Shown piece after piece: positions 8,056 through 18,355 of a stretch of 64,000 nucleotides of DNA. The number at the start of each line of letters is the position of its first letter. The stretch's first letter is position 1. The notes under the pieces were generated by a model. It made no database searches, had not been told where the DNA came from, and saw only the letters and a list, made by a program, of their open reading frames with translations. The position numbers were made by a program, and so were the translations under genes. The DNA is from Fluviispira multicolorata (GTDB lineage Bacteria > Bdellovibrionota_B > Oligoflexia > Silvanigrellales > Silvanigrellaceae): NCBI RefSeq assembly GCF_009208585.1, contig NZ_WFLN01000008.1, positions 124,001 through 188,000 on the forward strand, read 5' to 3'.

Positions 8056-8181
8056 ATGTCATTTATAAATGAAGAAAATAACGAAGATATTTTTGACATT
8101 AATTTCACTGCATCTACTATTGAAGTGAATGATGAATTGATGTCGTGTCGTTCAGTTGGAACTTGTCTTTGCATGGAATGA
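8056..8181 (+). CDS. Class I lanthipeptide precursor-like peptide 1
   Basis: A 41-residue ORF just ahead of lanB. It begins MSFINEENNEDIFDIN, and the same leader begins the next small ORF (8222). The FDIN tetrad resembles the F[N/D]LD box that class I LanB enzymes recognise. The C-terminal part holds Ser, Thr and Cys (SCRSVGTCLCME), the residues needed for lanthionine rings. The SD is weak (GAG 6 bases before ATG). With lanB broken, the peptide is probably not modified today. The leader homology with its neighbour and the position are what support this call. Confidence 0.72.
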   Translation: MSFINEENNEDIFDINFTASTIEVNDELMSCRSVGTCLCME

Positions 8182-8271
8182 AAATTTATATTTACGTATC
8201 ATTTATATAAGGTGTATAATTATGTCATTTATTTATGAAAATAAAAATGAAGATATTTTTGATATTGATTT
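8056..8271 (+). repeat. Imperfect direct repeat encoding the precursor leaders
   Basis: The leader-coding segments at 8056-8105 and 8222-8271 are near-identical in DNA (shared ATGTCATTTAT start, GAAGATATTTTTGA core), while the downstream core-coding parts are unrelated. This is the pattern of a duplicated precursor gene whose core has diverged. It is not a mobile-element repeat. Confidence 0.6.
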
Positions 8272-8338
8272 TTTGGTAACTACTGTAGAAATTGAGGAAA
8301 GCCTTAGTTTGTCATTTACATGCAAACTTTGTGAATAG
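8222..8338 (+). CDS. Class I lanthipeptide precursor-like peptide 2
   Basis: A 38-residue paralogue of the preceding ORF, with leader MSFIYENKNEDIFDID and an FDID box. The core differs: SLSLSFTCKLCE, with three Ser, one Thr and two Cys. The ATG at 8222 has AAGG about 10 bases upstream and is chosen over an in-frame earlier start at 8156 because it aligns exactly with the start of precursor 1. Its stop lies 3 bases before the lanB start, so translation may be coupled. The first 45 or so bases repeat those of 8056, evidence of a local duplication. Confidence 0.72.
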   Translation: MSFIYENKNEDIFDIDFLVTTVEIEESLSLSFTCKLCE

Positions 8339-8341
8339 ATA

Positions 8342-11300
8342 ATGTACTCCCCAAATCCATTCTTTATGTTAAGAACACCAATATTTCCAATAAATTTTTT
8401 TATTGATTATTTAAATAATAAGGAAGATATCTTAACTTTTCTTCCCAAGAAAAATTATTATGAAATTCTTAAAGAAGCAATTTTATTATCGAGTAAATCA
8501 TTATATGATACTTTAATCTTATATGAACATAATAAAATACAAGATATAAGAAAACTAGATCAGATTAGATCTGGCGTTTTGAAATATTTTTCTAGAGCAA
8601 CATCCAGAGCAACTCCTTATGGCTACTTTGCGGCAGTAAAAATGGAGTATTACTTCGATGAGTCTGTTTCAAATTCAAACTGTGAATATCAATTCAAAAA
8701 ATCAATTCGTCCTGATATGGAGTGGATTCAAAGTTTTGTAAAAAGAATTGAAGAAAATATTGATTTAGTTCCTGAAATTAAATTAAAAATGAATCCTATT
8801 ATTTTTGAACATGGTGACAGAATTTTATTAGCATATTCATCTGTTAATATTCTTCAACTAAAAGAAAATAAAAATGCAATAAATGAGAATATATCAATAA
8901 AAAATAATTCACTTATAAACTTTATTAGGAAAAATTTACAAGAAGAATTAAAATTAATTGAATTAGTGAATAGAATAAAAGTTAAATTTTCAATAAATGA
9001 AGATTTTAAAATCAACTCACTTTTACAAGATTTAGTTAATAAGAGTTTTATTATAACCGAGTTAAAGCCAATTATTGGCAAGACAGATATTTTTTCTGAA
9101 ATTATAGAAAAGTTATCTTTTTTTCCCTCTCAAAAGCAAAATTATGAATATCTATCTGATCTAAAGTTTAAAATGAATGAATATTCAAAAATAAAAATTG
9201 GTGCTGGAGTTTTTCATTAAAACAAAATAATTAATGAAATGAAAAAATATTGCCATACTAAAAATTCATTACAAATTGATCTCAAATTAGAGAATGATAA
9301 TTTTAAATCAATTGAGTTAGATCTAGCTAATCAAGTCAAAGAATCTATTAATTTCCTTGCTGCAATCGCATCTCAGCAAAATGGTTTTCCGCATATTCGT
9401 GAATATCATAATGAGTTTTTAGATAAATATGGTGTTGACCGTGAAGTATCCATTCAAGAACTGCTTGATGAAAATATCGGACTTGGTGCGCTAGCTGGTT
9501 ATAAATATCCACAAAGTTATCGTAAAATACAAAAAAATGTTAAAAAAAATGAAAAAATATTAAATATTTTTTTAGATAAAATTATGGAATGTTAAAGATC
9601 ATTTTCAGATTCAATTCAGATTACTGAGCATGAGTTGAAGGTATTAGAAATAGATAAAATAGATTCAGAATTAATGCCAGATTCTATTGAAATATATGCA
9701 CAAATTTTTAAAGATAAAAATAAGCTTGATTTACAAACCTTTGTAAAAGATATTGAACAAAAGTATCCAGATACTTTATTTTGTGAACTTCTGTATTCTT
9801 CCCCATTTGCTCGAAATGCGAATGTTGCACTGTCTGAAAGTTATTGGCAGTATCGATTGTATTTAGATACATTTGAGGAATGTGCTAAAACCACACTGAA
9901 GTTAGAAGATATTGTGGTTTGCGCTGATTTTAAAAGACTTTATTTTAAATCTATAAAATTTCAAAAAGAGGTGGTATTTGTTGCTTCACACGTATTAAAT
10001 TTTCAAAATGCTCCAAATATAATCCGATTTATGCGTGAAATAAGTTATGAAAAATATGTTCTATGGAATAGCTTTTATATTGATGAATTAGCAAGCTTAA
10101 CATTTGTGCCTAGAATAGAATATCAAAATATTATAGTTTCACCAAGGACATGGAATTTAACTTTACATTCATTAAAACTATTAAAAGAGAATTTTAATTT
10201 TAAAAATGATTTTATGACTCAATTTAAAGCTTGGCAGAGAATATGGAATGTTCCAAGAATTATAAATTTAGTTCAAATTGATAATAAAATACTTTTAGAT
10301 CTAAGCATTGATCTGCATGTCCATGAAATAATGAAAGATTTAGTTCGCTATAATAAAGTAATTTTACAAGAAAATTTAGGAGTAAATTTTTCTGAACAGA
10401 GTTTAGATAATCTTATTTTTAATGAAGAAGTTATCCTTCCTTTTAAAGCGAATAAAGAAAAAACTCCTTCATTAAAATTGATTGAAAAATGTATATCAAA
10501 AAATTATCCTAAAATTTTTTATCCAGGTAGTGAATGGTTATATTGTAAGATATATGTAAATAATATGCGTGAAGAAGAGTTAATTTCAAATTATCTTTCT
10601 GAATTTATAAATGAAATTAAGAATGAAATAAAAATTGAAAGTTGGTTTTTTATAAGATACCAAGATCCAAAGAAACATATTAGATTCAGAGTTTTATTAA
10701 AAGATAAAAGTCAATACGCAATTTTACTTAATAAGTTAAATTTTGTTTTCACATTTTTACATAAAAAGGGAATTAAAACTCGACATGTATAGATTCTTAT
10801 GAGCCTGAAATTGAGCGCTATGGGGGGCCAGATTTATTGCCTCTTGCTGAAAAAATATTTATGCATGAAAGCGAACTCGCTTGTTTGATATTAAAGAATA
10901 AAAAAATGATTGAATAAAATTATTCATTAGTATATGTTTGCGCATTTCTTTCAATTGAAGTCCTAGATGCTTTTGGATTAAACTATAGCGATAAATTGCA
11001 TTGAATTGATAGTACCACTACAAAAAATAAATTTATTGATGAATTCAGAGAAAAAAGAAAAAATGTAGTGAATTTATTTGAAAGAAATAATTATTGCTGG
11101 TACAATGATAAATCTTTTGACTATTTAAATTCAAACATATTAAAGCATAGTGAAGAAATTATAAAGTATAATAGTTTATTAGAAAAAAATATTTCAAATT
11201 CGCTCATTTATAGTTCAAAAAAAAGGATAATAAACAGTTTTATTCATATGCTATGCAATAGAATTTTGGGAATTAATAAAGAGTTAGAAGAGAAATCAAA

Positions 11301-11355
11301 TGCATTTATATTGCATACTTTAAATAGTTTAAAATATAATAACTTGAAAAAATAA
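8342..11355 (+). pseudogene. lanB: Lantibiotic dehydratase (LanB), disrupted
   Basis: Translated across its breaks this is a full-length class I LanB of about 1,000 residues. The N-terminal glutamylation domain is clear (SRATPYGYFAAV), then the middle (NGFPHIREYH, KYGVDREV, ENIGLGA) and the C-terminal elimination/SpaB-like domain (SWFFIRYQDPKKHIRFR, EIERYGGPDLLPLAE). Frame 2 runs 8342-10789 but is cut by TAA at 9218-9220 and 9593-9595. A frameshift near 10790 moves the homology to frame 1, which is cut by TAA at 10915-10917 and TGA at 11002-11004 before the natural stop at 11353. Five lesions spread over 1.8 kb argue for decay rather than one sequencing error. The enzyme cannot be made whole, so Ser/Thr dehydration of the precursors should be lost. 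Confidence 0.9.
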
Positions 11356-11380
11356 TATTTTTTTTATAATGGATTAATTT

Positions 11381-12679
11381 ATGATAGATGAAATAATTTT
11401 CGAGCTTGCATTGTGTTTAGAAGATATTGAATATGTAGAAAATATATTGAAAAATTCTAATAATGCTTCAGCTCAACTGGAGTTAACAACATTAGCAAAT
11501 GGCTTTCCTTCAATTGCTCTTTTTTATGCACAGCTTAATTCCATATATCCAGAGTTAAAATTTAAAAAATTGAGTCATCAGTATTTAGAAAAATCAATTG
11601 CAAGATTTCATGGCAATACATTGAACACGAATTCTTCCTTTTTCAGTGGCATAACTGGCCTCTGCTTTACAGTTTGGGTCTCATCTGAAAATGGAAGGCA
11701 GTATCAGGGTTTATTAGGAAAAATAGATTCAATCTTGTTTCTAGTCTTAGATAAAAAATTTAAAGTAATAGAAAACAAAGAGCTTTTTAGTCCAAATGAT
11801 TACGATGTCATTCAAGGTCTATCAGGTGTTGTAAGGTATTTGATCTTAAGAAAACATGAAAATAAACATTTTGAATATCTAAAAAAATCTCTGAGAATTT
11901 TAATAAAAATAAGTTCATTGATGAAATATAATCATTATTCAGTTCCAAGTTGGTTACTTTCAAAAAATGAGAATATATTTGGACTTGGGAAGTTAAATAA
12001 CCCAGTTGAAAGTTTTAATGTAGGAGTTTCACATGGAGTCAGTGGAATATTATTAGCTCTTAGTATTTCAAAAATTAATAATATTCAGATGAGTGATTTA
12101 GAAAGTTCAATATTTTCTATTAAGAATTGGATATTAAAATGGACTCAGGAAGATGAATGGGGCCCTTACTGGCCAAATATAATCAGTTTAGAAGATGAGT
12201 TAAATGGAAAGTATTATCATAGAAAGGAAGGAACTCAGCGGCAAGCGTGGTGCTATGGAACCCCTGGAGTATCAAGAGCACTCTATTTAGCTGGCACTGC
12301 ACTAAATGATTTTGAATTACAAGAAATTGCTCTAAAAGCATTTTTGACAATTGAAAAAAGACCTGAAGTAGAATGGTTTTGTGATTCTCCGACATTTTGT
12401 CAAGGCTATTCAGGTCTTTTGCAAATAGCAAAGAGATTTTATTTTGATAGCAAAAATAAAAATATTCTCAACATTATAAATAGACTGCAAGAAAAAGTAA
12501 TTTCCCTCTATTCAAAAAGCAATTCATTTTTATTTTGCGAGTATAAAAATAAAGAAGGCATAATTGGAGATCTAAAGCAGATCGGATTGATTGAAGGTGC
12601 CACTGGAACTGCATTGAGTCTTATTCACACAGAATATATGGACAAATGTTTTTGGGATCAAGCATTTTTAATATCATAA
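11381..12679 (+). CDS. lanC: Lanthionine synthetase C-like protein (LanC), zinc site altered
   Basis: 432 residues, normal LanC length, open throughout. The double-toroid GxxG repeats are visible (FFSGITGLCF, QGLSGVVRYL, VGVSHGVSGILLAL, WCYGTPGVSRAL, FCQGYSGLLQ, EGATGTALSL). LanC uses Cys, Cys and His to bind zinc, which activates the Cys thiol for ring closure. Here Cys291 (WCYG) and Cys340 remain, and the active-site His218 (SHG) remains, but the His after the second Cys is Gln341 (CQG instead of CHG; codon CAA, one base from a His codon). The gene starts 25 bases after the broken lanB. It is probably a non-functional or relaxed remnant; a different role cannot be excluded. Confidence 0.88.
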   Translation: MIDEIIFELALCLEDIEYVENILKNSNNASAQLELTTLANGFPSIALFYAQLNSIYPELKFKKLSHQYLEKSIARFHGNTLNTNSSFFSGITGLCFTVWVSSENGRQYQGLLGKIDSILFLVLDKKFKVIENKELFSPNDYDVIQGLSGVVRYLILRKHENKHFEYLKKSLRILIKISSLMKYNHYSVPSWLLSKNENIFGLGKLNNPVESFNVGVSHGVSGILLALSISKINNIQMSDLESSIFSIKNWILKWTQEDEWGPYWPNIISLEDELNGKYYHRKEGTQRQAWCYGTPGVSRALYLAGTALNDFELQEIALKAFLTIEKRPEVEWFCDSPTFCQGYSGLLQIAKRFYFDSKNKNILNIINRLQEKVISLYSKSNSFLFCEYKNKEGIIGDLKQIGLIEGATGTALSLIHTEYMDKCFWDQAFLIS

Positions 12680-12680
12680 A

Positions 12681-12724
12681 TTAAATTAGTAGATTTTAAA
12701 ATAATTTAAAATCTACTAATTTAA
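12681..12724. terminator. Bidirectional AT-only terminator between convergent genes
   Basis: A perfect 20-bp inverted repeat (12681-12700 and 12705-12724) with a 4-base loop ataa sits between lanC (+) and the binding protein (-) and overlaps the last codons of the latter. A and T tracts on both sides suit factor-independent termination in both directions, although the stem has little G+C. Confidence 0.6.
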
Positions 12725-14303
12725 TTTTCCATAAATCCAGTCTAACACCGCTGTACATGGATTCTAAAAATTTAATTCTATCTTTGCGATAGGCAAATCG
12801 TTTTTTTAGATTAAACATAACTATCATATAATTTTTTCTCTTAAAATATTCACTTAATTGTCGAGTGTGCTCTGGATTACTTAAAAAATTATTTACAGAT
12901 AAATCATATAATTTTAAAAATTCTTCGTCATTTTCAGGATATATATTATTAAAAAAGGAGCCTGTTTTAAAATAGGCAAAATTTGCATTTGGATCATCTG
13001 TTTGAGTGTCAAAACCCGTAAACCAGAGGACATTTTCATCATCTTTTTTAAATTTCGTATAATTAAAGTCAGTATTATAGAACTTTAAATTTATTCCAAT
13101 TTCTAAAAGTTGTCTTTTAATTTCTTTTATATAACCAATTTCATTTAAATCTTTTTTAATTGGCCAAAAAGAATGAACAGGGAGAACTTTGTTCTCCCAC
13201 AGTTCTTTTGGGACTTTTGCCATATGCTCCTTTGCCAAAGCAATATTTTGCTTTGTTATTGGCTCTCTTGAGCGATAGCGTTCCTGCCAAGAATACTGTG
13301 CCAACATTTGATCTTCTGCGACAATGTCATTATCTGAAGAGGTTTTTACTATTTTTTCTCTATCTAAAGCAAATGTGATTGCTTTTCTAAAATTTTCATT
13401 TGCTCCTAGGGGAGACTTAAAATTAAATAAAAATCCTCCATTGATGTAAATATTTGGAAATAAGACTTTGCCTTCAAAGAAAGATTCAGATAAATGTGAA
13501 AGAAATCGTAAATCTCCAATGTCTTTATCACTAAAAATAATTCGGATGTATTTCGGAATGTCTTCTTTAGAAGTCTTTTCTAAGATAAATTGATAGTCTT
13601 TAAGATCTGCTTTAAGTATTTTATAGCGACCAAAACCTATTGGAATACCTTTCCAGTCGATATATTTTTCGTCGAGCTCTTCTATGGGGACAATAGGCAT
13701 AAAAGCTGTGGAAAGCTTTTGCAGTAAAAAATGATTGTTTCTTTTAAGTGTCAATATAATTTTAAAATCATCTACAACCTCAAAACCATCTAAAATTTTT
13801 CTTGGATAATTTAGATTATGAATATTTTCAAACTTCGCTTCTTTTAAATTATCTATTCCCACTATGTCATCAAGATTTGAAAATGCAAAATTATTTTCTT
13901 TGCTTTGAAGTAAAAGCCTTGCGTATGAAAATTCCACATCATAGGCAGTAACCGTTCTGCCATTGTGAAATTTTATATTTTTTTTAAGGTTAATTTCACA
14001 TTTTTTATTTTTACATGAGTAGTTTTCAACAAGTATATAAGGATCTCGCTTGGTATTGACCTCTTCTAAATCAATTAAATTACCGAAAACGGCAGAACCA
14101 AAGGTCTCGACCACATTTGTTTCGGTATCGATATAACTCCATGGTATTTGAGGTGTTTCTCCTAAATTTATTGTTAAAGTATTGTTGTCATTATAAAGAT
14201 CCGAGTCACTATACATACTATTTTCCTTTTTAAATTTAGGTATTATAAAAAATAAAAGAATAATTATTGTGGCGACTAATATAAATAGTAGTTTTTTTTT
14301 CAT
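12696..14303 (-). CDS. Membrane-anchored peptide-type ABC substrate-binding protein (SBP_bac_5), copy 1
   Basis: 535 residues of the OppA/DppA-like fold (LTINLGETPQIPW, IKFHNGRTVTAYDVEFSY, AFMPIVPIEEL, NFRKAITFALDREKIV). The N-terminal hydrophobic stretch (residues about 4-22, LLFILVATIIILLFF) has no clear cleavage site or lipobox, so it is probably an uncleaved membrane anchor. The start is ATG 14303, with AAAGG 7 bases upstream. A close paralogue lies at 16742-18355. No permease or ATPase gene is adjacent. An 8-bp inverted repeat lies in the 5' leader. Binding of a peptide is inferred from the family. Confidence 0.85.
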   Translation of the reverse strand: MKKKLLFILVATIIILLFFIIPKFKKENSMYSDSDLYNDNNTLTINLGETPQIPWSYIDTETNVVETFGSAVFGNLIDLEEVNTKRDPYILVENYSCKNKKCEINLKKNIKFHNGRTVTAYDVEFSYARLLLQSKENNFAFSNLDDIVGIDNLKEAKFENIHNLNYPRKILDGFEVVDDFKIILTLKRNNHFLLQKLSTAFMPIVPIEELDEKYIDWKGIPIGFGRYKILKADLKDYQFILEKTSKEDIPKYIRIIFSDKDIGDLRFLSHLSESFFEGKVLFPNIYINGGFLFNFKSPLGANENFRKAITFALDREKIVKTSSDNDIVAEDQMLAQYSWQERYRSREPITKQNIALAKEHMAKVPKELWENKVLPVHSFWPIKKDLNEIGYIKEIKRQLLEIGINLKFYNTDFNYTKFKKDDENVLWFTGFDTQTDDPNANFAYFKTGSFFNNIYPENDEEFLKLYDLSVNNFLSNPEHTRQLSEYFKRKNYMIVMFNLKKRFAYRKDRIKFLESMYSGVRLDLWKIKLVDFKLF

Positions 14304-14315
14304 TCATAAACCTTT

Positions 14316-14337
14316 CTTTATCCTTATATGGATAAAG
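14316..14337 (-). promoter_or_regulatory. Inverted repeat in the 5' leader of binding protein copy 1
   Basis: CTTTATCC (14316-14323) and GGATAAAG (14330-14337) are perfect 8-bp arms around ttatat, just upstream of the ATG at 14303. It could be an operator or an mRNA hairpin. No copy was seen before the paralogue at 16742. Confidence 0.35.
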
Positions 14338-14528
14338 AGTTTAATTTATACATAAAGATTGAAATATTCAAATTTTTAATTAAATTTTTATTGGTAATCT
14401 ATTATTTTAACATAATTTATATACTTTTTATTTGAAATATATTATAATATCATTTTATTTTGACAATTTTTATGTAAAATTGACATTTTATAAATTATTA
14501 GAACTAAATCCGTTATAAGGTGTTGTGT

Positions 14529-15089
14529 ATGGATAAGAAATTATTAGAAGAGAATATTAGGCATGAGTTAAATAATATTTTGCTTATTTGTGATTCTGAA
14601 GTATTAGCACAATATGAAAATTGTATATTAAATAATCAGAATAAAATTCCCAGCGAGTCATTGAAATATTATTTTTCTTTTTCTAAAGAATCTCATGAGA
14701 TAATGACAAAAAATTTAGATATTTCGTGTGAACTGACGCTGCAAGGATATTTTGAAAATCCATTAAGTGTATTAAATAATTTTGATCTCTGCTGTAGCAT
14801 AGCCAAATTTTTAAAAATTAATTATATTAGCCTGATAAATAAGATAATGAATGAAAAAACCTTAAACATTGCTAATCAATCATCATTTATTAAAACTATG
14901 AAAATTTATGAAGAAAAACTGTCAAAAGATTCTTATAGAAAATTATCTAAGCTAATGCTCACTATATTAGAAAATAATGTAGACATAGACTGTTTTTATG
15001 ATACATCTCTTTTTTTAATTTCTAAAAAGTTATATGAGAACGAATCAGTGAACAATATTAAACTTTATATCGAGGGTAATTTAAGCTAA
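14529..15089 (+). CDS. Unknown 186-residue protein
   Basis: Not recognised. The ATG at 14529 is preferred over the in-frame start at 14520 because AAGGTG lies 6 bases before it. The protein is predicted mostly helical and acidic/Lys-rich, with no signal peptide, membrane segment or known motif; four Cys are scattered. It is divergent from the binding protein at 14303 and its last 9 bases overlap the 3' end of the histidine kinase on the other strand. Placement inside the kinase/binding-protein block suggests, but does not show, a shared role. Confidence 0.6.
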   Translation: MDKKLLEENIRHELNNILLICDSEVLAQYENCILNNQNKIPSESLKYYFSFSKESHEIMTKNLDISCELTLQGYFENPLSVLNNFDLCCSIAKFLKINYISLINKIMNEKTLNIANQSSFIKTMKIYEEKLSKDSYRKLSKLMLTILENNVDIDCFYDTSLFLISKKLYENESVNNIKLYIEGNLS

Positions 15090-16733
15090 TTTTATAATAA
15101 TATCTTCATATTTTATTGGTTTTTTAGGTAGAAATGTTTTAATTAATTTTAAATACTCTGAGGGAACCCTATTTTTTACGTTATTTTCAAACGATGAACA
15201 TATTATAATGTTTCCTGTAAATAAATCATCAGAATATTTATAAATATCTTTGAAAAATTCGCTATCAATGAGATCGTAATCACCAAAGTTAAAATCACAA
15301 ATTATAAGATCTATTTTTGACAAAAAGGGCTCATTTTTTATTCTCATTCCAATCGTATGTGAAAAAAACGAATCTGGATTTTCAAAACAAAGAATTTGCG
15401 CATCAGTCATTTTTTCTTTCCAACTGTTCCAGAATAAAGTTTCATCTTCTAGCAAAATGACAAGTGGATCGCTCTTTTTCGTTTTAAAGTTTTCTGTTAA
15501 AATAATTTTTGGGATTTTTTGCTCAGTCATATTTTTTATTATCCGACATCTTGAGTCTTTTAAACAAGGTAGAGTAATTCTGAAAGTTGTTTGTCTACTT
15601 TTTAGTAAAATGATATCAGCAGATGATCTATTTAACATTTCTTTTAAGTTAGAAAGACCTTTTCCATGCCCATCTTTTTTAGAGGTAAATCCACTAAATA
15701 TTTTATTTTTAATAGATTCTTCTATGGGGGTGCCGTTGTTTGTAATATCAATAGTAACTTTAGAATTGTTTTTTTTCTGAAGAATATTTATTTTAATTTG
15801 GCTTGCCTGAACACTTGCATGTAAAGCATTGTCAATAAGTACAATAATAGCATGTTCTAAATATTTATTTATATAGTTAATCTCATTAAATGTATTTATG
15901 TTTATGATTACCTGAATATTTATATTCGAAAATTTTGCAAAGCTTTTAATGAACTCCTCTGGATTGATACTTGTAAAACTGGATTCATCTATTAATTCTG
16001 CAACTTGTTGATTATAATGAATTGCTCGTTTAACAATTTCATCTTTATTGCCTGTTGAGTTTAAAACGTTAAATTGATTGTCTAAACTGTGTTTAATTAA
16101 ATTTACAGTATTATTTATTGTATTTACTCTAATTCTACTAATAAGTTTGTCTTGTTTTCGAGCATGAAAAACTCTTAATGGCAAAGCTATAAAAAAAGTT
16201 AAAAAGAAAAAGAATATTATATTTAAAAAAACTAATGAAAATATAAATGGTAAGCCAAAAAAGAAGATAAATTTTTTATAATAAACGACTTTGTATTCTT
16301 TATTTTTTGTTTCATAAATATTTGCTATATATAAATATTTATTAAAAATAATAAATGAGTTATTGCTTTTTAAATTATCTTTTATTATATTTTTTCTTAC
16401 TTCGTTTATTTCTATATCTGTGATGCTCCAAATGGGGCTATTTTTTTCACCACATATTTGACAATTCCAAATATCAACTGAAAAATTATTGGAATTACTT
16501 TTTTCATAGTTATAAATTGACAAAGAAAATTCTATGAGCCTAGTTAATATATCGTCACTATTATTAAATTTAGATAAATGCTGAATATATCCGCTACCTG
16601 AATAAAAAATTTCATTCATATTCTTTTTATAGTAAATATAATTTTCTACTAATACTAAACTGAGTAGTATTAAGCAGAATAATTCAATTTTTATAAATGA
16701 ATAAAAAGATAAATTATTAAAGTAATTTTTCAA
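15081..16733 (-). CDS. Hybrid sensor histidine kinase with C-terminal receiver domain
   Basis: 550 residues. Order: TM helix 13-31; an extracytoplasmic sensor of about 120 residues with a CxxC pair (Cys91, Cys94); TM helix 154-184; a divergent His box with His215 (LIKHSLDNQ), like the SpoOB/CitA style rather than HExxTPL; a HATPase domain with N-box DNALHAS (Asn302) and G-box GHGKGLSN (about 355-362). The last 125 residues are a receiver with acidic pair Glu429/Asp430, phospho-acceptor Asp480 (ICDFNFGD) and Lys537 (LPKKP). The start is TTG at 16733 with AGGA 6 bases before. It follows the binding protein of 16742-18355 by 8 bases, so the two form an operon. No output regulator gene is adjacent. 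Confidence 0.85.
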   Translation of the reverse strand: MKNYFNNLSFYSFIKIELFCLILLSLVLVENYIYYKKNMNEIFYSGSGYIQHLSKFNNSDDILTRLIEFSLSIYNYEKSNSNNFSVDIWNCQICGEKNSPIWSITDIEINEVRKNIIKDNLKSNNSFIIFNKYLYIANIYETKNKEYKVVYYKKFIFFFGLPFIFSLVFLNIIFFFFLTFFIALPLRVFHARKQDKLISRIRVNTINNTVNLIKHSLDNQFNVLNSTGNKDEIVKRAIHYNQQVAELIDESSFTSINPEEFIKSFAKFSNINIQVIININTFNEINYINKYLEHAIIVLIDNALHASVQASQIKINILQKKNNSKVTIDITNNGTPIEESIKNKIFSGFTSKKDGHGKGLSNLKEMLNRSSADIILLKSRQTTFRITLPCLKDSRCRIIKNMTEQKIPKIILTENFKTKKSDPLVILLEDETLFWNSWKEKMTDAQILCFENPDSFFSHTIGMRIKNEPFLSKIDLIICDFNFGDYDLIDSEFFKDIYKYSDDLFTGNIIICSSFENNVKNRVPSEYLKLIKTFLPKKPIKYEDIIIKLA

Positions 16734-16741
16734 ATTATTTC

Positions 16742-18355
16742 CTAAAATATATTGTTATTTTTTAATTTAATTTTCCATAACTCTATTCTAACGCTATTAT
16801 TTTGGGGCTCAATAAATTCAACTCTCTCTTTTTTGTATGCCATTCTTTTTTTAACGTTTAAAATAACAACCATATAATTATTGTCTTTAAAATAAGCGCT
16901 TAATTTTTGTGTGGATTCTGGATTTTCTATATATTGTTGGGCGGATTCATTAAACAAAATTTCAAACTGACTATTATTCTCTGGATAAATATGATTAAAA
17001 AATGATCCTTTCATAAAGTAGCCAAAGTTACGGTTTGGATCATTTGTTAAAGTATCAAAACCAGTCCACCATAATACATTTTCATCGATTCTGTTAAATT
17101 TTGTATAATTAAAATCTGTATTGTGAAAAACAAGATTGAGGCCAACTTCAGATAATTGTTTTTTTATTTCTTGAATATATTTTAACTCATTGAAGTTCTT
17201 TTTTAATGTCCAAAAACTATGTACATTTAAGATTTTATTTTCCCATAATTCTTTTGGTACCTTTTTAAGGAGTTCTTTTGCTAAAGAGATATTTTGAGAT
17301 GTTATAGCTTCACTTTTCCGATATTTTTTTAATACAGAGGAGAGGGGAAGCATTTGATCTTCAGCGATTAATTCATTGCTTTCAGCTGTATTTGCTATTT
17401 TTTCTCTATCGAGCGCAAGAGAGATTGCCATGCGAAAGTTTTCGTTTGCTCCAAGTTTTGTACTAAAGTTAAATAGAAAACCACCATTTACATAGACGCT
17501 TGGAAATACGACATCTCCATCAAACTGAGAGTCGGACATATGAGACAATATCCTAAGATCTCCAATGTCTTGATTGCTAAAAATAATACGAATGTATTGT
17601 GGAATATTTTCATTACTCATATTCTCTAATATAAATTCATAATTTTTTAAATCTACTTCAACAACTTTATATCTGCCAAAACCCACAGGTAGGTTTTTCC
17701 AGTGAATATAATCTGATTTGAGTTCTTCGATGGGCACAATAGGAAGTCTTCCTGAATTTAATTTTTCAAATATATGAGGATTATTTTGCTTTAAATCAAT
17801 TGTTAAATTATAATTATCAATGATTTTTAATCCATTTAGCATGCCTGAGAAATAAGATATTCCATTTTTTTCTATTTGTTTTGCTGGATTTAATTTTTCG
17901 ATACCTTCAATATCATTGAGAATAGTAAAAGCAAAATTATTTTCTCGCTCTTGCGTTAAAAAACGGGTAAAAGAAAATTCTATGTCGAATGCTGTTACAT
18001 TTCTGCCATTGTGAAACTTTATATTCTTTTTTAACTGAATAGAGCACTTTTTATCTTTACATGAATAATTATCAATTAAATTAAATGAATTGCTATTTGA
18101 ATTATATTCTTGTGAATCTATAAGATTGCCAAAAACAGCGGAAGCAAAGGTTTCAATAACATTTGTTGAGGTATCTAAATGATTCCAAGGTATCTGGGGA
18201 GTTTCAGATAAGTTTATGGTAAGTGTTTTGCTGTCGCTATAAATATCAGAATTGGTATACATTGTGACGTTCCTTTTGTTTTTAATAGTAATAATAGTTA
18301 TAATTATACTTAATAGTATTATATATATAAAAATGTAAATGTATTTAATTCTCAC
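16742..18355 (-). CDS. Membrane-anchored peptide-type ABC substrate-binding protein (SBP_bac_5), copy 2
   Basis: 537 residues, collinear with 12696-14303 and clearly a paralogue (shared TLTINL, ETPQIPW, VFGNLID, KKNIKFHNGR, PKELWENK). It too begins with a long hydrophobic stretch (residues about 5-24) without a lipobox, so it is probably tethered to the inner membrane. The GTG start at 18355 has GAGGA 6 bases upstream. It is first in an operon with the hybrid kinase, whose start lies 8 bases on. Without a permease, a sensory role (presenting ligand to the kinase sensor) is a reasonable inference. Confidence 0.85.
   Translation of the reverse strand: MRIKYIYIFIYIILLSIIITIITIKNKRNVTMYTNSDIYSDSKTLTINLSETPQIPWNHLDTSTNVIETFASAVFGNLIDSQEYNSNSNSFNLIDNYSCKDKKCSIQLKKNIKFHNGRNVTAFDIEFSFTRFLTQERENNFAFTILNDIEGIEKLNPAKQIEKNGISYFSGMLNGLKIIDNYNLTIDLKQNNPHIFEKLNSGRLPIVPIEELKSDYIHWKNLPVGFGRYKVVEVDLKNYEFILENMSNENIPQYIRIIFSNQDIGDLRILSHMSDSQFDGDVVFPSVYVNGGFLFNFSTKLGANENFRMAISLALDREKIANTAESNELIAEDQMLPLSSVLKKYRKSEAITSQNISLAKELLKKVPKELWENKILNVHSFWTLKKNFNELKYIQEIKKQLSEVGLNLVFHNTDFNYTKFNRIDENVLWWTGFDTLTNDPNRNFGYFMKGSFFNHIYPENNSQFEILFNESAQQYIENPESTQKLSAYFKDNNYMVVILNVKKRMAYKKERVEFIEPQNNSVRIELWKIKLKNNNIF

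Follow-up and report, generated by a model that had tools for sequence, protein, structure and literature searches.

A probable relic of a class I lanthipeptide pathway in Fluviispira multicolorata, with an intact counterpart in the same genus

Background

Lanthipeptide genes standing in canonical order, but with the gene of a central enzyme interrupted, raise the question of whether the pathway was truly lost, or whether the interruption reflects sequencing errors, a division of the enzyme into separate polypeptides, or precursors kept for another use. We address this question for a locus of the water-living, Gram-negative Fluviispira multicolorata (Silvanigrellaceae, Bdellovibrionota; contig NZ_WFLN01000008.1), which lies in a stretch of 64,000 nucleotides that was analysed as a whole and is called here the window. 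An earlier note, made from the sequence alone, had read the locus as a class I relic and a dated snapshot of pathway loss, and had proposed to search relatives for an intact version and to compute dN/dS.

The reference systems, nisin NisABC and MadABC of Clostridium maddingley, have in common short precursors, made of a leader and a core, that carry an F-x-[IL]-[DEN] motif (FxLD type), the gene order A-B-C, a full-length LanB (PF04738 and PF14028) and a separate LanC (PF05147). Going by the known chemistry of these enzymes, in a working form of the locus LanB would bind the LanA precursors (38-43 aa, leader F-[DE]-I-[DEN]) and would dehydrate Ser/Thr of their cores with glutamyl-tRNA, and LanC, with its Cys-Cys-His zinc site, would join core Cys into thioether rings.

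Results

Open reading frames and Pfam matches bear out the arrangement previously described, with unchanged coordinates: two class I precursor ORFs are followed by lanB and then by lanC, all on the forward strand (Table 1). Only 3 nt separate the end of lanA2 from lanB, which it directly abuts. The leaders of the two precursors are alike (EDIFDINF and EDIFDIDF) and run into short Ser/Thr/Cys tails, thus providing an FxLD-type leader motif with a Ser/Thr/Cys core next to lanB; the motif reads FDIN and FDID in the window and FEIE in G005, another genome of the genus, with Ile and not Leu at its third position in the precursors of both. In addition, lanA1 shares 71% identity with an orphan precursor of G005. 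A profile built from four members of the precursor family matches further precursors elsewhere in the genus (E=1.6e-13 and 5.6e-6 per genome), so that lanA1 and lanA2 are not chance ORFs. In the window, the gap between them folds no better than shuffled sequence, and the long hairpin between lanC and the convergent sbp5a is probably a terminator shared by these two genes.

Table 1. Features of the lan locus, with positions counted from the first nucleotide of the window
Feature	Position	Strand	Evidence and remarks
lanA1 precursor, 41 aa, MSFINEENNEDIFDINFTASTIEVNDELMSCRSVGTCLCME	8056..8181	+	leader motif FDIN; Ser/Thr/Cys core; family profile E=1.2e-21
lanA2 precursor, 38 aa, MSFIYENKNEDIFDIDFLVTTVEIEESLSLSFTCKLCE	8222..8338	+	leader motif FDID; family profile E=2.1e-18
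lanB pseudogene (class I lanthipeptide dehydratase)	8342..11355	+	tblastn with intact G005 LanB; Pfam PF04738 and PF14028
lanB in-frame stop 1, TAA	9218..9220	+	alignment with G005 LanB; first frame
lanB in-frame stop 2, TAA	9593..9595	+	alignment with G005 LanB; first frame
lanB 32-codon (96-nt) in-frame deletion	9727..9728	+	alignment; junction about 9727/9728
lanB frameshift, interval	10765..10792	+	alignment with G005 LanB; bounds approximate
lanB in-frame stop 3, TAA	10915..10917	+	frame after shift
lanB in-frame stop 4, TGA	11002..11004	+	frame after shift
lanC (lanthionine cyclase), 432-aa open frame	11381..12679	+	LANC_like 3.9e-58 (Pfam); FCQG at the Cys-His zinc pair
Long hairpin 3' of lanC, between lanC and convergent sbp5a	12678..12727		-21.9 kcal/mol, z -10.7

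Downstream of the locus, at positions 12696-18355 of the window, two oligopeptide-binding proteins of the SBP_bac_5 family, whose N-terminal segments resemble membrane anchors, flank a histidine-kinase-like gene (15081-16733). Such sets, often expanded, also occur in other members of the genus, including ones without lan genes. We considered this cluster as a peptide receptor for the lan product and rejected it: homologues stand in genus members devoid of lan genes, so that no link to the locus is shown.

The lanB gene aligns from end to end with the intact 1039-aa LanB of G005 (52% over residues 1-845 and 57% over residues 843-1033), and its glutamylation and elimination domains both remain recognisable, with Lant_dehydr_N (PF04738) on the first and third pieces (4e-40 and 2e-43) and Lant_dehydr_C (PF14028) on the third (2.8e-18). 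This alignment confirmed the four in-frame stops and the single frameshift that had been described and revealed a 32-codon deletion that had not, giving six disabling lesions between which open pieces of 292, 118 and 385 aa remain. The deletion removes an FGRF motif that is kept in all five other LanBs compared, namely those of G005, Priestia and S. epidermidis and both copies of G003, a further genome of the genus. Counted along the NisB alignment, the Arg of this motif falls on NisB position 464, a residue that we take to have a role in glutamylation; a literature search found no paper confirming this role. Its six lesions, seen against an intact homologue and amid undamaged neighbours, make lanB a pseudogene, and no working LanB enzyme would be encoded in the window, though both domains are recognised.

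The lanC gene encodes a stand-alone LanC (PF05147), with no further domain above the cut-off and no fusion to a dehydratase or kinase. A second lesion absent from the earlier description lies in its zinc site, where the protein carries WCYG and FCQG, with His replaced by Gln, and the Cys-Cys-His triad is thus incomplete. All four LanCs aligned for this motif (G005, G003, Priestia and S. epidermidis) read FCHG, and both NisC (2g02) and MadC (8byk) place Cys-His at the same site of the alignment. The third zinc ligand is His331 in NisC and His345 in MadC. Activity is reported to depend on zinc binding, and the Cys-Cys-His triad, which makes up the MadC zinc site, is described as essential in both NisC and SgbL (PMC9889658). 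Because all of the nearest relatives keep the His, we read its replacement as decay of a family member. LanB and LanC, judged by their sequences, are therefore both very probably impaired in this genome, where lanA1 and lanA2 would then no longer be modifiable. A whole-genome search found no other LanB or LanC in this draft assembly (94% complete, 26 contigs), and the broken lanB predicts that the organism makes no lanthionine-bridged peptide.

The search for an intact version in relatives succeeded in G005, which has at the same chromosomal place an uninterrupted lanB (1039 aa), a lanC (436 aa) that retains FCHG and a 43-aa precursor. Position, neighbours and gene order agree, the two loci being flanked by a squalene/phytoene-synthase-like gene upstream and an SBP_bac_5 gene downstream. 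The LanC proteins are 53% identical in the whole-genome search, LanB and LanC overall 53-55%. The tree joins the LanB and LanC of the window to the G005 copies as sisters, within a genus clade apart from the Bacillota outgroup copies. Unlike the window, with its two precursors, G005 has a single precursor at the locus, and a strong hairpin (-21.9 kcal/mol, z -9.4) separates it from lanB; hairpins are usual at lanA-lanB junctions. Since an intact lanB-lanC pair with a precursor occupies the same place, the window locus is a true relic. Moreover, internal stops are absent from about 22 further orthologues shared by the window and G005 over about 35 kb, so that the damage, which is of several kinds, is confined to the lan locus.

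The age of the loss was approached in several ways. Pairwise dN/dS between the window and G005 was 0.14-0.29 for the lanB pieces, 0.17 for lanC and 0.03-0.20 for neighbours; this comparison, which had been called for, says little either way about relaxed selection because dS is saturated (1.1-2.5). Relative-rate tests (Tajima, outgroup G003) revealed no excess change in the broken copies: unique changes were 97 in the window against 114 in G005 for LanB (p=0.24) and 29 against 45 for LanC (p=0.06), with 54 against 60 in control genes. Likewise, the window branch of the tree was not longer than that of G005 (0.387 versus 0.406). Used as a clock, the four nonsense mutations, spread over about 990 codons, translate into about 50-97 neutral substitutions, or 0.017-0.033 per site, and the Poisson range on four stops extends, by our estimate, roughly from 0.005 to 0.08 around a centre of about 0.02. 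The missing rate excess, together with stops that amount to only about 0.02 substitutions per site, suggests that lanB was lost recently relative to the species split, without conversion to years; the 'dated snapshot' of the earlier note thus holds in this relative sense and not as a calendar date. Some observations run counter to decay, as lanC and both precursors are open and dN/dS of the lan genes between the two genomes is still low (0.14-0.29). These are expected under a recent loss and alone do not demonstrate decay of lanC. Note that at the rate of the lesion clock about 1.7 stops would be expected in lanC and the chance of an open frame is about 0.17, so its openness is no proof of selection either.

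Across the genus, the lan system is patchily distributed and has decayed independently more than once. In G003, lanC adjoins a lanB that a single in-frame TGA interrupts, together with an open precursor and what appears, judged by eye, to be a degenerate second one. The same genome carries a lone intact lanB of 1040 aa (L032:7212-10334; G003:C1:1477220-1480318) with neither LanC nor a recognisable precursor beside it, 0.8 Mb from its only lanC. Orphan class I precursor ORFs occur in G005 (L053:1492-1617; G005:C1:749554-749676), as a second precursor far from lanB and lanC, and in G006 (L048:1414-1560; G006:C2:603579-603722), whose 98% complete genome yielded no LanB or LanC. G002, G004 and G007 yielded neither LanB nor LanC, nor any convincing precursor. 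G002, G003, G004, G006 and G007 all have the same upstream genes, and in the stretches read these are not followed by a lan locus; the G004 contig ends soon after them. LanC-like (PF05147) proteins were also seen in two large genomes of the same class (L028, G045:C40; L029, G034:C70), which, in the search of relatives, gave no match to the LanB of the genus; these proteins possibly belong to other lanthipeptide classes.

The ORFs surrounding the window locus include no evident LanT, LanP or LanFEG/LanI, the lack of transporter and immunity genes having already been remarked in the earlier note, and those surrounding the intact G005 locus include no evident transporter, protease or immunity gene either. 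Because the intact locus also does without them, their absence is a trait of these loci and not, as had been supposed, a mark of decay. A separate RiPP-like locus on another contig of the window's genome (C23:3550-7140, L098) comprises a radical SAM protein, a precursor-like ORF of 81 aa that is rich in Cys and ends in DLTDFGCCGKNGNCTNNSCKEDDK, and an ABC transporter with a C39 peptidase. This transporter was rejected as the lan exporter, since it belongs to the radical SAM locus and Peptidase_C39 is absent from all of G005, which has an intact lanBC.

Discussion

Comparison with the characterised systems places these loci within class I. Indeed, the best matches of the intact G005 LanB are MadB (9g04, E=1e-118) and NisB (4wd9, 2e-66), over the whole length, and the window LanC matches MadC (8byk, 1e-55) and NisC (2g02, 4e-29). 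The window and G005 loci differ from NisABC and MadABC in having no adjoining LanT, LanP or immunity genes, the window locus also in its broken lanB and lost LanC zinc ligand, and the precursor cores are short and Cys-rich compared with nisin. The lantibiotic locus of Priestia megaterium pBM700 resembles the window in its two tandem precursors followed by lanB and then lanC (LanB about 32% and LanC about 31% identical) but is plasmid-borne and intact, with an ABC transporter between lanB and lanC and further ABC and regulatory genes.

Altogether, the intact syntenic copy in the same genus, the six lanB lesions and the lost zinc ligand of LanC bear out the reading as a relic, and we are highly confident that the locus is what remains of a chromosomal class I lanthipeptide pathway inactivated in recent times. 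With four stops, a frameshift and the FGRF segment gone, a whole LanB would be impossible in this genome, in which the LanC zinc ligand is also gone, and the loss would have followed the split from G005, which retains the intact locus at the same position.

Among the other explanations, it could be proposed that only the modification enzymes decayed, and that selection still maintains the precursors, unmodified, for a new role, one that may extend to the orphan precursors of relatives. Both window precursors are open, G006 keeps its orphan without LanB or LanC and that of G005 lies far from lanBC, all of which would fit; nevertheless, ORFs of 38-41 codons easily remain open over about 0.02 substitutions per site, and we regard such a role as decidedly unlikely. 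It is very improbable that the breaks are sequencing or assembly errors in a functional locus. The sequence is AT-rich with homopolymers and the assembly is a draft, yet four separate stops, a clean 96-nt in-frame deletion of a conserved motif and a changed zinc ligand in LanC are atypical of homopolymer errors, and the other aligned genes, about 22 over about 35 kb, are free of internal stops. Finally, natural split LanBs exist (PMC7268733) and long open pieces are left, but the breaks lie off the domain boundary and cut inside both domains, with the frameshift and two stops falling in the elimination domain. FGRF is missing as well and LanC is without its zinc ligand, so the chance that lanB survives as separate functional glutamylation and elimination polypeptides is negligible.

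Conclusions

A recent and otherwise ordinary loss of the pathway in the window's organism thus remains our reading. A class I lanthipeptide locus is a known kind of locus, apparently undescribed in Silvanigrellaceae (Bdellovibrionota), and a literature search found no lanthipeptide report for Silvanigrella. The suggestion that this lineage lies outside the best-known class I groups is fair, provided that class I is taken as already widespread, nearly a quarter of class I LanCs being in Bacteroidetes (PMC7268733). Our results place class I lanthipeptide biosynthesis in Silvanigrellaceae, where a close relative has an unbroken copy of the locus, and provide a natural series within one genus (intact, single-stop, multi-lesion and orphan precursor only) for the study of how a peptide pathway is lost. 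The zinc-ligand change of LanC also emphasizes that an open reading frame alone can conceal a probably dead enzyme. A broader view, which we consider unlikely, is that the LanB-LanC pair of the genus acts in trans on precursors scattered over the chromosome, the synthetases being repeatedly lost while leader-bearing precursor genes survive and acquire a role as unmodified peptides; if it were true, the window would show a single step of this turnover, caught while still fresh.
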